The translations under genes were made by a program, and so were the position numbers. Below are positions 24,642 to 32,284 of a DNA stretch of 46,776 nt, one piece after another. The stretch covers positions 1 through 46,776 of the forward strand of contig JAFGLG010000012.1 of NCBI GenBank assembly GCA_016928155.1. Direction: 5' to 3'. The number at the start of each line of letters is the position of its first letter. Position 1 is the first letter of the stretch. This stretch comes from Candidatus Woesearchaeota archaeon. GTDB taxonomy: Archaea; Nanobdellota; Nanobdellia; Woesearchaeales; JAFGLG01. The notes beneath the pieces were generated by a model. That model had not been told where the DNA came from. It searched no databases and was given only the letters and a program-made list of their open reading frames with translations.

Positions 24642-25664
24642 ATGGATAAGGTCGCAGTCCTCGGATCCGGCATATTCGGTTTTGTGCTTGCCAGGCATAT
24701 CTCTCTTCTTCATCCAGGGACAGATGTCTTCATGTATGATGTTGTCGATAAGATAATAGACCACCTTAAGCAGCACAGGTCTCATCCTGTCCATCTGAAG
24801 AGGATAAGGCTTCCGGATAACATCCATCCGACCTCTGATCTGAAAGAGGCTGTCGATGGGGCAAGTCTGATTGTTGCAGCTGTTCCTGCCCAGTTCATGA
24901 GGTCTGCCTGCAGGGATTTTGGCCCCCACATAACCCGGGATGTGATCATACTTAATGTCGCCAAGGCCTTGGAGTTGAAATCCCATAAGCGCATGTCTGA
25001 GGTGTTTTCTGAGGAGCTGAAGGATGTCCCTCACATGGTCCATTTTGCGATGCTGTCCGGAGGGATGATAGCTCAGGAGGTTGCCATGGATTGTCCCCTG
25101 TTCGCTGAGGTTGCCTGCGAAGAGATAGGTGTGGCAGAGCAGCTTCAGCATTTCCTTTCCAGTCCCACCCTGAGGCTTTATACTAACACTGATCTGATCG
25201 GTGTGGAGCTTGCAGGCGCTTTCAAGAATGTCGTCTCTATCCTTGCAGGCATCTCAGACGGTCTTGGCTATGCTGCAGGCACAAAGGCTGCTCTGAAGGC
25301 CATCGCTTCCGGCGAGATTGAGATCCTTGCCGGGAAGATGGGTGCAAAGCCGCATACCTTCTCTAACAAGACTCTTGCCTGGGAGGCTGACCTCTCGACT
25401 TGTGTTTTTGGAGATTCGCGGAATCGTTATTTCGGCAAGCTCATAGGCTCAGGTTTCTCTGTGAAGGACGCTCTTGAGGAGTTGGAGCAGGAATCAAAGA
25501 GGGCTGAGGGCTATGCGACATCAAAGGTCATCCATGAGGTCATGTCAGAGCATGGTCTTGATCTCCCTCTGCTCGATAGCATATATGCTGTGCTTTATGA
25601 AGGTAAGAGCCCAAGTGTTGCTATCAGCGAACTTATGACAAGGGAGTATGAGTCAATTGGATAA
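24642..25664 (+). CDS. gpsA: Glycerol-3-phosphate dehydrogenase, GpsA type
   Basis: 340 residues. NAD(P)-dependent reduction of dihydroxyacetone phosphate to sn-glycerol-3-phosphate. GSGIFGFVLA is the dinucleotide-binding loop. NVAKALE and LSGGMIAQEV match the family motifs. GVELAGAFKNVVSILAGISDG holds the catalytic Lys. FGDSRNRYFGKLIG is the substrate-phosphate region. This is the bacterial stereochemistry; typical archaea use EgsA to make sn-glycerol-1-phosphate. Some substitutions in classic motifs (SKGIE to AKALE) suggest divergence. It overlaps the next gene by 17 bp. Confidence 0.9.
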   Translation: MDKVAVLGSGIFGFVLARHISLLHPGTDVFMYDVVDKIIDHLKQHRSHPVHLKRIRLPDNIHPTSDLKEAVDGASLIVAAVPAQFMRSACRDFGPHITRDVIILNVAKALELKSHKRMSEVFSEELKDVPHMVHFAMLSGGMIAQEVAMDCPLFAEVACEEIGVAEQLQHFLSSPTLRLYTNTDLIGVELAGAFKNVVSILAGISDGLGYAAGTKAALKAIASGEIEILAGKMGAKPHTFSNKTLAWEADLSTCVFGDSRNRYFGKLIGSGFSVKDALEELEQESKRAEGYATSKVIHEVMSEHGLDLPLLDSIYAVLYEGKSPSVAISELMTREYESIG

Positions 25665-26109
25665 TCTGGAATCCAGGCTTGTCTTTGCCGGACCTTCTCT
25701 TTCTTCTGTCAGTTTTGAGGATGATTATTTCAGGGCAGATTATCATTGGATAAGTTCTGGGGCAAAGAGGGTCTTGCAGAGCATGAATCCTAGGAATACG
25801 ATGCGTCGTCTGTTCTGGAAAGCCAAGGAGCTGTATGGCTGGAGGGTCAGGCAGAGGAAGACCTTATCTATGGAGTGTAGTCTGGAGAAGGTGGTCGCTT
25901 ATGGGAAATCGATTGGTACACCCAAATCCGACGAGGGTGCCCTGTCATACTCTGAGCCAAAGATGGATGAGCGCACAAGGTCCTATGCGAGGGTGACCCA
26001 GAAGATTCTCTCTGCCAAGAGGATGAGCAAGAAGATAGCATCCTTGACTGCAATGTACCTCAATGAATACATTAAGAGAAGCAAGTATGCGAAGTCAAGG
26101 GATTACTGA
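25648..26109 (+). CDS. Hypothetical basic protein after gpsA
   Basis: 153 residues. N-terminal part SRLVFAGPSLSSVSFEDDYF, central basic helical part RRLFWKAKELYGWRVRQRK, C-terminal helix MSKKIASLTAMYLNEYIKR. No family recognised. Start ATG 25648 lies inside gpsA (17-bp overlap), suggesting coupled translation, with TTATGACAAGGGAG upstream as a possible site. Overlaps the convergent PhoU-type gene by 7 bp. Confidence 0.6.
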   Translation: MSQLDNLESRLVFAGPSLSSVSFEDDYFRADYHWISSGAKRVLQSMNPRNTMRRLFWKAKELYGWRVRQRKTLSMECSLEKVVAYGKSIGTPKSDEGALSYSEPKMDERTRSYARVTQKILSAKRMSKKIASLTAMYLNEYIKRSKYAKSRDY

Positions 26110-27023
26110 CCGGCCTTTCCGCTCGTCGATATGGCTATCATGTCATATGTGGCAAGGTGCATTATCCTGCATATCTCTGTCATGTAGGACAGTATCACTG
26201 ATGCTGCTCCGCGAGTTTCTGCCATCATGTCCTGCAGTTCCATGTAGAGCTTGTATCTGATCTCATTATGCACCTTCTCCAGTTGTGGTATGTTCTCTGC
26301 CAGGAAGGATGTGTGCATTTCTGCATACTCTCTCTTGATCTGCCTGAATCCCTGCATGATCTGCTTTGATATCTTCGGTTTGTGCTTGTCAAGATTCCGG
26401 TATAGGTAGAGCACGCTTGTCTGGATGGCATTCAGCATGAAATAAAGCTCCCAGTAATAGTTGACTCTCTCTTCTGTGAACCTTTTTTTTGAGATGTTCC
26501 TTCTGAGGAAGTTGGTGTATTGTGTCATCTTCTCATCCCATTGCTCGAAGTGTTTTGTCTTTTCATATCTTGCTTCTTCAATGTCCTCTTCGGTCTGGTC
26601 AAGGCTTTCCATTGTTATCTGGAACATCCTTTTCAGAATCGTCTGCTGCTTGTCTTCGCTGGGCTCTGTCACACTTTCGATTACTGTTTTCTTTTCGCTT
26701 GTCTCTGTGATCTCGAAACCTAGGAGGTATCTGCTGATGATCTTTTTTATCTGGCTGTGGTGTTCTTTCTGGTGATGGATTGTTATCCTGTCATATCCGA
26801 AATTGTAGAGCGTGTGTATCCTTATCCTGATGAGCGGGAATGTGTCATCCTCTAGCTTGAGTTCGCATTCCTTCTTGCCTCCTCCTTTTGCAGATATCAC
26901 TAGCTTGCTTCCTGATTGGTCTAATTCAATCTCATCTCCCTGTTCCAGCCCTCTCTGCTCTACCCATTTCTTTGGCAGGGTTATTGTGAAGCTGTCTTTT
27001 TGCTTGATGAGGCTTCTTTTCAT
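26103..27023 (-). CDS. AbrB-PhoU domain regulator
   Basis: 306 residues. Residues 1-50 form an AbrB/SpoVT-like swapped-hairpin DNA-binding domain (SFTITLPKKWVEQRGLEQGDEIEL). From about 110 to 300 it is a PhoU-like helical bundle. This archaeal architecture is annotated as phosphate uptake regulator and is thought to couple metal or phosphate sensing to transcription. No Pst transporter genes are in the window, so its target is open. Upstream (27024-27140) is very AT-rich. Confidence 0.85.
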   Translation of the reverse strand: MKRSLIKQKDSFTITLPKKWVEQRGLEQGDEIELDQSGSKLVISAKGGGKKECELKLEDDTFPLIRIRIHTLYNFGYDRITIHHQKEHHSQIKKIISRYLLGFEITETSEKKTVIESVTEPSEDKQQTILKRMFQITMESLDQTEEDIEEARYEKTKHFEQWDEKMTQYTNFLRRNISKKRFTEERVNYYWELYFMLNAIQTSVLYLYRNLDKHKPKISKQIMQGFRQIKREYAEMHTSFLAENIPQLEKVHNEIRYKLYMELQDMMAETRGAASVILSYMTEICRIMHLATYDMIAISTSGKAGQ

Positions 27024-27139
27024 GGATTCCGGGATATGTCTAGTGTATTTAAATTTTATGAAAAAACATATGTGGAATATGAAATATACGGGTTACATAT
27101 ATTAATATTATATTTATCTACTGTAGAGAAATAAAAATT

Positions 27140-27176
27140 CCCAAAGCTTTGTTACTCTGGGTAACAACAATTTTGG
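27140..27176 (+). promoter_or_regulatory. Compound hairpin before the small-gene operon
   Basis: TTGTTAC (27149-27155) pairs perfectly with GTAACAA (27161-27167). An outer CCCAAA (27140-27145) pairs with TTTGGG (27171-27176). It lies 24 bp before the first gene (27200), downstream of AT-rich promoter-like DNA. It could be an operator palindrome or a structured 5' leader controlling the operon. Confidence 0.5.
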
Positions 27177-27199: not shown

Positions 27200-27406
27200 A
27201 TGGATATAAAAGAATCCGGGCATGATTGCATAGGACAGAAGAGATATGACCTTCCCTTGATTTTAGTAGGATTGGTCTGTGCTTATTCTTTGGCTGTCGG
27301 TTATTGTATGGATCCAGATGATACTATCGATAAGAGACCTGTAGCTGTTCAGGCATCTCCTACTATTGACGATGCTGTGCAGGATGATTATCAGGTGATG
27401 AGATGA
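27200..27406 (+). CDS. Small operon gene 1, single-span membrane protein
   Basis: 68 residues from ATG 27200, preceded by GTGTGGGGAT. One hydrophobic helix (about 17-38, LPLILVGLVCAYSLAVGYC) and an acidic extracellular or cytosolic tail with DPDD. No family recognised. Its stop overlaps the next start (ATGA, 27403). It opens a chain of seven genes that all overlap. Confidence 0.6.
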   Translation: MDIKESGHDCIGQKRYDLPLILVGLVCAYSLAVGYCMDPDDTIDKRPVAVQASPTIDDAVQDDYQVMR

Positions 27407-27684
27407 ACCCATTAGGCGATAGCCCGATGAGATACCAGCCATGCGGTGATGATACCGGCAGGATCGGTTACAAGGAAGCCAAGTTGCAGTATGAACGGAA
27501 ATATCACACTGCCAGGATAGTCAACTGGTTGATTGTACCTGCCTTGATAGTGGGCGGCATTGCAGGTTATTATCTGCGCGGCTGCATTGATGACAGGGTA
27601 CAGGAGCAGTCTCAAATATTCCTGCAAGAAGAATCTCAGAGCCATCAGGTGCCAATCATGGAATACAAAGGTGATGCAGAGTGA
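27403..27684 (+). CDS. Small operon gene 2, single-span membrane protein
   Basis: 93 residues. A polar N-terminal part contains GRIGYKEAKLQYE, resembling the GKIGYSMLMSV and HSIGYAELISY segments of operon genes 6 and 5. A membrane helix (about 42-60, WLIVPALIVGGIAGYYL) and a Gln/Glu-rich tail follow. Its stop overlaps the GTG start of gene 3 by four bases. Confidence 0.6.
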   Translation: MNPLGDSPMRYQPCGDDTGRIGYKEAKLQYERKYHTARIVNWLIVPALIVGGIAGYYLRGCIDDRVQEQSQIFLQEESQSHQVPIMEYKGDAE

Positions 27685-27893
27685 GACTGGGATATGTGAG
27701 GCCTGAGCTGAGGAAAGTTATCGGTCAGCGTGACATGACACTTCCGGCTGACCTTGATGAGATTTTCCTCATGTGTGTGGACAGCGGGTTGCCAATTAAT
27801 TCCTACAAAAAGAATCAGGTTTTGTATAAACCTCATGCAGGACATGTCCCAGAAGGATATGTCTCAGGATATGATCAGGGTGTTTTGAAATGA
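27681..27893 (+). CDS. Small operon gene 3, partial member of the operon's protein family
   Basis: 70 residues, GTG start overlapping the previous stop (GTGA). The middle (LMCVDSGLPINSYKKNQVLY, then AGHVP) follows the spacing C-x4-5-I-S-x-Y-x5-L-x5-GH-L-P seen in genes 4-6, so it looks like the C-terminal half of the same domain. No membrane segment. Overlaps gene 4 by four bases (ATGA). Confidence 0.55.
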   Translation: MRLGYVRPELRKVIGQRDMTLPADLDEIFLMCVDSGLPINSYKKNQVLYKPHAGHVPEGYVSGYDQGVLK

Positions 27894-28219
27894 TGAGGCG
27901 CCCGATCCCTAGATGGTATGAGTCTGCATACAATAAGGGCCGTGTCAGTGTGGATTATGAGCATTTGATTGATGCGCTCAGTGGAGCATTGGAGAGGCCT
28001 GGATCAAAGGATCGTGTGAAGATGATCTGCAATCAGGTTGGTCTGAAAGACAGGGGTATTTATCTGCTCTTGGATCATGCTCGCATTCACAGGCACCTTC
28101 CTGATATGCCAGAGCTGAGGGAGCTCTCTTTGGAATACACTGTCTTGGACACCATGAGGGGTTCATGCGATAGGAGGGATTATTTTCCTGATCTGAGGTT
28201 TTGGGATGGAAGCTCCTGA
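27890..28219 (+). CDS. Small operon gene 4, operon-specific family
   Basis: 109 residues, soluble, predicted helical. Starts with RWYESAYNKGRVSVDYEHLI, then DRVKMICNQVGLKDRGIYLL and HARIHRHLPDMPEL. This aligns by eye with genes 5 and 6 across about 65 residues. Its stop lies 14 bp inside gene 5. Function unknown. Confidence 0.6.
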   Translation: MMRRPIPRWYESAYNKGRVSVDYEHLIDALSGALERPGSKDRVKMICNQVGLKDRGIYLLLDHARIHRHLPDMPELRELSLEYTVLDTMRGSCDRRDYFPDLRFWDGSS

Positions 28220-28496
28220 AGGTTACAATCATTCTATAGGGTATGCTGAATTGATCAGTTATCTCTCTGCTGCTGATAAGATATACCGGAGCGGCGGATT
28301 GAAGTGGACCACCAAGGTTTGCTCTTTCTGCAACGTTCATGGCATATCATATGATGATTTGGGTGACATAGTGTCTCATGCTGTCAGGAATGGCCATCTG
28401 GACAACTCAGAAGGCCTTAATGGGATTTTGCTTGCGAGGCAGCAGAGGATGTCATCTGCCGAGACAACCAGATTGAGGAGATCAGAATGGATATGA
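28206..28496 (+). CDS. Small operon gene 5, operon-specific family
   Basis: 96 residues. Contains YNHSIGYAELISYLS, TKVCSFCNVHGISYDDLGDI and HAVRNGHLDNSEGL, the clearest version of the shared pattern with gene 6. Two Cys (CSFC) and His residues could bind a metal but are not conserved in gene 6 as a pair. Overlaps gene 6 by 10 bp. Confidence 0.6.
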   Translation: MEAPEGYNHSIGYAELISYLSAADKIYRSGGLKWTTKVCSFCNVHGISYDDLGDIVSHAVRNGHLDNSEGLNGILLARQQRMSSAETTRLRRSEWI

Positions 28497-28801
28497 TGGA
28501 TATGGTTCAAAGACCGTCATGGTATGACGGGAAGATAGGTTATTCAATGCTGATGTCTGTCATGAAGTTTGCAGTGATGCCTGACAGGAAACTGACTGTG
28601 GATGAGAAGGTTGCTGCATTCAGCTCGATCTGCGACCAGGCCAGGATAAGTTTTTATGATGGGCTTGATCTTCTGGTCTTCGCTCAGGAGCGTGGCCATC
28701 TGCCCGCAGATGAGGAGACTCATGATTTTATCAATGCTTGTCTTGATCCTACCGGTCTTTTGTATCCCTCAGCATCTTATCCCAAAGTCAGGTATGGATG
28801 A
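28487..28801 (+). CDS. Small operon gene 6, operon-specific family
   Basis: 104 residues. WYDGKIGYSMLMSVMKF, EKVAAFSSICDQARISFYDG and FAQERGHLPADEET line up with gene 5. Helical, soluble, slightly acidic. Its stop lies 8 bp inside a final 23-codon frame. Confidence 0.6.
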   Translation: MDMMDMVQRPSWYDGKIGYSMLMSVMKFAVMPDRKLTVDEKVAAFSSICDQARISFYDGLDLLVFAQERGHLPADEETHDFINACLDPTGLLYPSASYPKVRYG

Positions 28802-28865
28802 GAAATATCTGATGTTCCTCGCCGCTCTCCTTGCTGGAGTTGCGATGGTCCGGCGGGCATTTTGA
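28794..28865 (+). CDS. Small operon gene 7, 23-residue membrane peptide
   Basis: MDEKYLMFLAALLAGVAMVR followed by RAF: one short hydrophobic helix with a basic end. Overlaps gene 6 by 8 bp and ends 3 bp before the convergent GNAT gene. Overlap and hydrophobic character support it, but at this length it could be chance. Confidence 0.4.
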   Translation: MDEKYLMFLAALLAGVAMVRRAF

Positions 28866-29677: not shown

Positions 29678-32284
29678 CTATTTCTTGACTTCGTCTTCAA
29701 AAAGTGTCTTTGATTTCTTGACTGCCATCGGAGCCTCGCCGCCGTGCCATGTGAACCTCGGCCTGACTCTCATGGCATACATCTTCTCGTTTGTGTCATC
29801 GAATATGATTGCTGCTCCTTTGACGCGCGGCAGGTTGTCGAGCAGGATTGTGAGGCCTTCCCTCATGTAGGACTGCATCAGCATTCCGAGCGCCTCGACA
29901 TCCAGTTTTGCAGTTATCCTGTGCGCTATGACTGTGTCGCTTTGTGTCATGACATCTGTATGGATCTTTCCTGGCTGCTGTGATGCCAGTATCAGCGAGA
30001 TTCCTGGCTGCCTTCCTTCCCTCAGTATCGTGACAAGGGCGTCTGTTGCTGCAGTCTTTCCTGTTACTGGCAGGAACTCGTGCGCCTCATCGATGACCAG
30101 CCATACCATGGGCATCTCCTGCGCCTTCTTGCTGATGTCCTCTTCGCCGAAGTAGTGCATTGTGGTGTGGATCTGGTCGAACTCCTCTTTCTTCCTTGCG
30201 ACCATCCTTTCTATGAATAGTTTCTTTGAGATTATCCCGAGCACGAGCGCCTTGATGCTCCACCCTCCTGGCATTGTGGCATAGCATGACAGGTCAAGCA
30301 CTGTCACTTGTCCTCCTCGCGCAAGATCCTTTATCGGTGTTCCTTTCTCTGAGAACACTCCCCAGTTCATTGTCCCCAGCAGTAGGTTTTCAAGGGCATC
30401 CTTTGTTTGCTTCTCTCCTCTCTCGTCTCTCATCACTGCATCGATTATGTCCTGTATCGAGAAATCACCCTTGTCTTTCTTGAGCTGGAGCACATGCCTT
30501 GTCAGCAATACTCCAATCGGGTCTATGTTTGTAAGCCCGAATGTCATGAGCCAGTCATCTATGTCAAGGTCTGATGGTTTTATTGAGAAAGGGAAGTCTG
30601 TCGGTATGCCTTCATCCTTGTATTGATAATAGTATTGGTCTGGTGTGAATATTATCGGGTTGAGCCCCACTGGCTTCTTGTTCCATTCCCTCAACAGGTC
30701 CTCATCTTTCTTGTTGGGATACTTCATTGTCCAGTAGACGCCCATTGTGTCTAGGAGGATGATGGAGATGTTCTGCCTGACTTCCTCTGGCATGTCTGAT
30801 AATCCTTCAGCGATGACGCCCATGGTGTACGAGTTGTGGATTATTATGTCATTTGCCACAAAATTGTGCGCTTCTGGCACTGATATGTCATATACCTTGA
30901 ATTCCCCCATCATCTCTTCTACAGAAGCTATCTCATCCCAGTAGATGTCTGATTCTGCCATCCTCTGGATGAATTCGTTTCCATCAAGCTCTGCGATCTG
31001 CAGCAGCTTCTGCCTAGAGGGAGCATATTCTATGGAGCTCCTTAAGGCTTTTGGTGTCGAGTATCCAATCACTTTTCCTATTGCAGCCCAGTTCTCTGGC
31101 CTGTACCTGTCCCATATCTCTTTTGGTATTGTGTCAAGGTTGGGATTCCTTGTCTTGCACTCCAGAAGTGCCTTTTCCTGTATCCTTCCTTTTCTTCCAA
31201 AGAATCCTATATCTTGCAGGAACTTGCTTACATTCTGTCCCTTGATCTCGATCTCATAGCTGATGAAATTCTTGTTATTCTTATCCCTGATCCTGTTTAG
31301 AACACCGAATCTCAGGAGCAGATGATGCACCTGCTTGATTATTCTTTCTGATGCGCTCGAATAAGAGATCCTGTAGTCATCTGATTTGTATATTGATCCA
31401 TCGCAGGAGAATAGCCTGTTCAGGAATAGGCTGACCTTGTTCTTTGGCGCTGTGAAGATATCCTCTGGGATGAATTTTGTCCTTGAGTCTTTTTCATATA
31501 ATCCTGCTCTCTCTATCCACTTCCTCATGCTTGATTTGGAGTCGAAGCATGAACCGGCCATGAATTTTCCTTTCTCATCCCTTTTTGCTTTGCATTTCCT
31601 TTTTTCATATCCGACGATGCGGTAATTATTCTCTCCATGGCTCTTTATCTCGAGTGATGGGTCAAGATCATGCACTGCCCTCTTGAAGTCATCCACGATC
31701 TCCGGATCCTTGTTTGAGAAGAGCACGAATCCATTCCCTAGGTGCCCTTCTGCTATGAGATATGCCAGTAGTTTTGCTTGATGCTCGCTGATGTCTTTTT
31801 CACCGAATACATCCATCCCTCTTGGGGTTGCAATCCTTGATCCCGCACCCAGGTCTTTTGCCTCTGTCCATCCGTTGATTGTCAGCAGCGGGTGCTCTGG
31901 CGTGAGTTTTATCTCCTTGCCTGTCCTGAGCCTTATTTTTAGGATCTTATTGACTGTCCTTTCGAAGAATTCATCTTTTGCTTTCTTTGTTATCTTGAGA
32001 TCCTCATTTAATGCAAGGATTTCGTTATCATTATTCTTGAGCTCGTGGATGGGGACTGTCCTTCCGTCATTCAGTGTCACTAGAGTGTCCCCTGTCACGC
32101 ACTTTCCCCCGCCCCTTTTTCCGCAGATGAACACGACATGCGTTCTCGAGATGTCCATGTATATCTTGTTTGAGAGCGATGTTGTCTGGCCCATCTTGAC
32201 ATAATGCTTTGCTATCAGGATAGTGCCTTTCATCCCGTATTTTTCCCTGTCAGAAGCATTCCTGCCGATGATTATGTCAAACAT
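29678..32284 (-). CDS. HerA/FtsK-like ATPase precursor containing an intein
   Basis: 868 residues as translated; 445 after removal of a 423-residue intein. The mature protein is a HerA-type hexameric motor. Walker A GKRGGGKS is rebuilt by splicing between Lys 61 and Ser 485. Walker B is VWLVIDEAHEF. A later REGRQPGISLILASQQPG is the sensor/arginine region of the family. HerA proteins usually act with NurA nuclease in DNA end processing, but no NurA, Mre11 or Rad50 is nearby. The N-terminal part (1-50) is a short barrel-like lead. Start ATG 32284. A minus-strand TATA-like CATTAAAAAGC lies about 40 bp upstream. Confidence 0.9.
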   Translation of the reverse strand: MFDIIIGRNASDREKYGMKGTILIAKHYVKMGQTTSLSNKIYMDISRTHVVFICGKRGGGKCVTGDTLVTLNDGRTVPIHELKNNDNEILALNEDLKITKKAKDEFFERTVNKILKIRLRTGKEIKLTPEHPLLTINGWTEAKDLGAGSRIATPRGMDVFGEKDISEHQAKLLAYLIAEGHLGNGFVLFSNKDPEIVDDFKRAVHDLDPSLEIKSHGENNYRIVGYEKRKCKAKRDEKGKFMAGSCFDSKSSMRKWIERAGLYEKDSRTKFIPEDIFTAPKNKVSLFLNRLFSCDGSIYKSDDYRISYSSASERIIKQVHHLLLRFGVLNRIRDKNNKNFISYEIEIKGQNVSKFLQDIGFFGRKGRIQEKALLECKTRNPNLDTIPKEIWDRYRPENWAAIGKVIGYSTPKALRSSIEYAPSRQKLLQIAELDGNEFIQRMAESDIYWDEIASVEEMMGEFKVYDISVPEAHNFVANDIIIHNSYTMGVIAEGLSDMPEEVRQNISIILLDTMGVYWTMKYPNKKDEDLLREWNKKPVGLNPIIFTPDQYYYQYKDEGIPTDFPFSIKPSDLDIDDWLMTFGLTNIDPIGVLLTRHVLQLKKDKGDFSIQDIIDAVMRDERGEKQTKDALENLLLGTMNWGVFSEKGTPIKDLARGGQVTVLDLSCYATMPGGWSIKALVLGIISKKLFIERMVARKKEEFDQIHTTMHYFGEEDISKKAQEMPMVWLVIDEAHEFLPVTGKTAATDALVTILREGRQPGISLILASQQPGKIHTDVMTQSDTVIAHRITAKLDVEALGMLMQSYMREGLTILLDNLPRVKGAAIIFDDTNEKMYAMRVRPRFTWHGGEAPMAVKKSKTLFEDEVKK
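30833..32101 (-). mobile_element. Intein in the Walker A loop of the HerA-like ATPase
   Basis: 423 residues, class 1. Block A begins CVTGDTLVTLNDG (Cys 1). Block B has LTPEHPLLTINGW with the TxxH. Two LAGLIDADG-type motifs, LLAYLIAEGHLG and FLNRLFSCDGSIY, mark a homing endonuclease. Block F/G ends VPEAHNFVANDIIIHN, followed by Ser +1. Insertion is exactly between the Lys and Ser of GKS, so unspliced protein cannot bind ATP. No frameshifts, so splicing and endonuclease may both be active. Confidence 0.95.

Follow-up and report, generated by a model that had tools for sequence, protein, structure and literature searches.

An orphan operon of six overlapping small genes with tandem paralogues in a Candidatus Woesearchaeota archaeon

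The window analysed here, 46,776 nucleotides long, is the entire contig C12 (JAFGLG010000012.1) of a Candidatus Woesearchaeota archaeon, whose genome (1.48 Mb, 99.7% complete) contains an archaeal 16S rRNA. A run of small open reading frames lies head to tail within it, preceded by a TATA-like box and a dyad (Table 1). From g1 to g7, successive frames overlap by 4, 4, 4, 14, 10, and 8 bases, which exactly reproduces the coordinates of the initial annotation of this DNA and its statement that every gene overlaps the next by 4–14 bases.

Table 1 Features of the orphan operon and its upstream region (positions in the window)
Feature	Position	Strand	Description
TATA-like box TTATATTTAT	27108–27117	+	Putative operon promoter, read from sequence
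Dyad CCCAAAGCTTTGTTAC-TCTGG-GTAACAACAATTTTGG	27140–27176		Probable operator
g1	27200–27406	+	68 aa; one hydrophobic span (residues 18–36); acidic tail
g2	27403–27684	+	93 aa; one hydrophobic span (residues 39–57); N-terminal motif P-x-x-Y-x8-R-I-G-Y, also in g4–g6
g3	27681–27893	+	70 aa; GTG start; C-x3-G-L...G-H-V-P and PEGY resemble g4–g6
g4	27890–28219	+	109 aa; probable paralogue of g5/g6
g5	28206–28496	+	96 aa; paralogue of g6
g6	28487–28801	+	104 aa; paralogue of g5
g7	28794–28865	+	Hydrophobic ORF of 23 codons; doubtful gene

Seven genes had been proposed, and six of them are borne out. When a codon model derived from 88 long ORFs in this genome was applied, the proposed frames of g1 to g6 were each the best of six and scored above 91–99% of wrong-frame stretches. 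The total coding score of the cluster was low because of its unusual amino-acid composition. The sequence ahead of the start codon pairs with the 16S tail of this genome strongly in g2, g3, and g6 (within the top 3–5% of all ATG/GTG in the window) and fairly well in g1, g4, and g5. The genes g1 to g6 are a genuine overlapping operon, spanning 27200–28801. Meanwhile, g7 is doubtful as a gene, since its frame was not the best of six under the codon model and the same pairing analysis detected no ribosome-binding site.

The dyad contains a perfect core, TTGTTAC-N5-GTAACAA at 27149–27167, located some 25 bases downstream of the TATA-like box. This spacing agrees with that of archaeal promoters, so that the transcription start would fall at the dyad, in the position of a repressor site. 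The element had originally been described as a compound hairpin that may act as a control site. The dyad itself exists and is operator-like, while control through an RNA hairpin was rejected: as RNA, the sequence folds no better than its shuffles (z −0.77), and it has no match in Rfam. The core occurs exactly twice in the genome, where the reversed-pattern control gave no copies and where 0.001 (Markov model) or about 0.02 copies (reversed control) are expected. No copy turned up in 334 further genomes of the order, in which the reversed control had about 8 matches, and allowing one mismatch gave no excess. The second copy (C2:134694–134712; L037:1501–1519) lies in the promoter region shared by two divergent genes, one for a coiled-coil orphan (P0001) and one for a NIP7-like PUA RNA-binding protein. 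The dyad is more probably a palindromic operator in the DNA than an RNA hairpin. Its place just downstream of a TATA-like box is reminiscent of archaeal operators that overlap the transcription start, although here the binding protein is only a candidate. Next to the operator, a divergently oriented gene on the reverse strand (26103–27023) encodes a fusion of a MazE/AbrB-like DNA-binding domain and a PhoU-like region; its product is a candidate regulator by position only.

Serial duplication had been proposed for genes 4, 5, and 6 from an alignment over about 65 residues. The similarity between g5 and g6 lies 10.7 SD above shuffles and extends over ~65 residues, and that between g4 and g5 lies 4.2 SD above shuffles (p 0.004); both signals arise only in the proposed frames. 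Taken directly, g4 and g6 are not significantly similar, remaining at the shuffle background, and are linked only through g5. A profile comparison, named at the outset as a check, did not refute the relatedness of the three: hhalign matched the g5+g6 profile to g4 with an E-value of 3.4e-5, at a probability of only 72%. Run through hmmsearch against about 1,100 test sequences, the same profile ranked g4 fourth, with one decoy ahead of it, and for this reason we consider g4 a probable rather than a certain member. Leave-one-out profile searches were strong for g5 (2e-6) and g6 (4e-5). Judging from sequence, g5 and g6 are certainly paralogues and g4 is probably a third, their in-frame similarity beyond shuffles being that of one paralogous family with g4 as its probable member. 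Between g5 and g6, codon-position identities of 0.33, 0.52, and 0.45 display no clear low third position, as would be expected if these positions were saturated, yet they give no sign of purifying selection.

The likeness may extend, in short motifs, to g2 and g3. Neither was retrieved by any profile, and the earlier proposal, in which gene 2 keeps the first half of the aligned region and gene 3 the second, holds for motifs and finds no support as homology. The motif near the start of g2 had a shuffle p of 0.002, and the N-terminal motif common to g2, g4, g5, and g6 had a single match when control ORFs totalling about 100,000 aa were scanned. In g3, the corresponding values were 0.0001 for C-x3-G-L...GHVP and 0.003 for PEGYVSGY. 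As the motifs of both proteins were chosen after inspection, this likeness is only suggestive.

Two or three single-span membrane proteins had also been predicted. Hydropathy gives one clear hydrophobic span each in g1 and g2; the third, g7, is hydrophobic and perhaps not a gene. For the soluble paralogues, AlphaFold2 was supplied with an alignment of g4–g6 only and predicted all-helical proteins, with four helices in g6 (pLDDT 72.4, pTM 0.64) and five in g4 (pLDDT 75.7 overall and mostly 77–93 across the first 80 residues, pTM 0.67). Foldseek found no PDB fold match for either model at E < 0.001 or TM-score > 0.5. Among the predicted viral structures of BFVD, the nearest were two uncharacterised Caudovirales proteins, A0A6J5PD43 (E 0.086, the best match) and A0A6J5MC25 (E 0.57). 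They resemble the models in length (about 90 aa) and, loosely, in fold, but compared by structure alone they reach a TM-score of about 0.4, which is not significant.

We looked for relatives with the g4–g6 profile and with g1–g3 in 352 further genomes of the order, and with the g4–g6 profile in a phylum-wide sample of about 370 genomes; no homologue was found in either set, so that no conserved gene order speaks for a complex. Likewise, there was no homologue in GTDB contigs, IMG/VR, phages, plasmids, or elsewhere in the same genome, the pattern-based contig scans being sensitive to close relatives only. No other member of the archaeon's own family came up in these searches, and a narrow spread below the family level would be invisible here. 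The view that no known family is recognisable was confirmed, with only insignificant best matches in the curated families of Pfam, NCBIfam, PHROGs, and PADLOC, and none of significance in PDB. Two groups of apparent relatives were rejected. All eight IMG/VR loci retrieved with the g4–g6 profile represent a single chance stretch (CSFCNQHGIS...) that runs antisense to the apparent genes. The weak matches among genomes of the order and of the phylum (E 2e-4 to 0.05) are chance hits to proteins that, named by eye, are radical-SAM-like, UDP-sugar dehydrogenase-like, or hydrolase-like, or to non-coding frames. The operon is an orphan, found in a single genome among those searched.

An orphan cluster of this kind might be the remnant or cargo of a virus or plasmid integrated into this archaeon. 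It is a tight group of small orphan genes with a low total coding score and unusual amino-acid composition, and its best viral structure match is a phage protein. However, synonymous codon usage in g4–g6 (0.107–0.116) is native when set against the genome mean of 0.111 and lends no support to recent import, while the same measure gives a clearly foreign −0.061 for the intein of the nearby HerA gene. The neighbours are housekeeping or otherwise ordinary chromosomal genes. We found no hallmark virus genes, no convincing flanking direct repeats, and no tRNA within 13 kb, and the viral and plasmid collections searched above yielded no match. The HerA, PhoU-like, and GNAT matches in relatives are not adjacent there, so no "empty site" is readable. 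Given the native codon usage, the ordinary neighbours, and the lack of convincing repeats or a nearby tRNA, we do not favour a recent origin from a virus or plasmid and consider a mobile-element source unlikely; the locus reads as an orphan cluster that is resident, not newly imported.

What the operon might do can be approached through its layout. Tentatively, at somewhat less than an even chance, we postulate a resident, lineage-restricted operon with an operator-bearing promoter and coupled translation, in which a helical assembly of g4–g6 is tethered by g2 and g1. The TATA promoter near 27108–27117 would be controlled by a dimeric DNA-binding protein on the palindrome at the transcription start, and coupled translation would supply the subunits jointly. 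The positive-inside rule would place the N-terminus of g2, which carries the P-x-x-Y...I-G-Y segment of the soluble g4–g6, in the cytoplasm. In the simplest model, these three soluble proteins and a diverged g3 would build a single helical assembly in the cytosol, or compete for a place in it, with g2 and g1 as its membrane tether. The initial annotation had suggested a multi-subunit envelope complex. The overlapping operon, the duplication, and the two single-span proteins were borne out, and a membrane-linked multi-subunit complex is plausible; a location in the envelope found no support. We think it quite improbable that g4–g6 define a new small helical fold or family and form, with single-span anchors, a novel, lineage-unique membrane-associated complex, possibly one that serves in contacting host or partner cells.

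The proteins could instead act independently, as co-regulated small products that evolve fast or arose newly, with their overlaps reflecting ordinary genome compaction and no complex being formed. This reading, which is rather doubtful and still a serious contender, agrees with the lack of homologues even within the order. Lineage-specific and de novo genes of archaea typically encode small, membrane-rich orphan proteins (PMC9258230), and other nearby genes also overlap or nearly touch (24642–25664, 25648–26109). Conversely, the side-by-side triplication of one domain and the recurrence of a motif in a membrane protein point to a partner in common. The second of those nearby genes (25648–26109, forward strand) encodes a 153-aa protein without any family match and overlaps the end of a glycerol-3-phosphate dehydrogenase gene.

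Serial duplication and tiny membrane proteins are also compatible with a small conflict or toxin-immunity operon, made up of secreted or membrane peptides and several immunity-like paralogues. We regard this as very unlikely, as the PADLOC search returned only an insignificant Cas8a fragment (E 0.013), Pfam and NCBIfam contained no matching toxin family, and no clear secretion signal was visible by eye.

Archaeal lineage-specific hypothetical families are short, unannotated, and rich in membrane spans, and each is confined to one lineage and widespread therein (Meheust et al. 2022, PMC9258230). The products of the operon share their shortness, lack of annotation, membrane spans, and lineage restriction, but differ in that g1–g6 were found in one genome only and include a tandem triplication in one operon. 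Nothing shows the operon to be a new kind of system; it is a real orphan with a triplicated family. Most lineage-specific proteins of small-genome archaea have no assigned role. The operon offers a clean case of a tandem-duplicated orphan protein and membrane partners in one operon of such an archaeon. The three paralogues and their common N-terminal motif provide concrete interaction tests, which are rare for orphan genes.

Downstream of the operon, the HerA-type ATPase gene (29678–32284, reverse strand) contains its intein, of LAGLIDADG type, at about 30830–32101, inserted inside the P-loop between the residues GKRGGGK and S.
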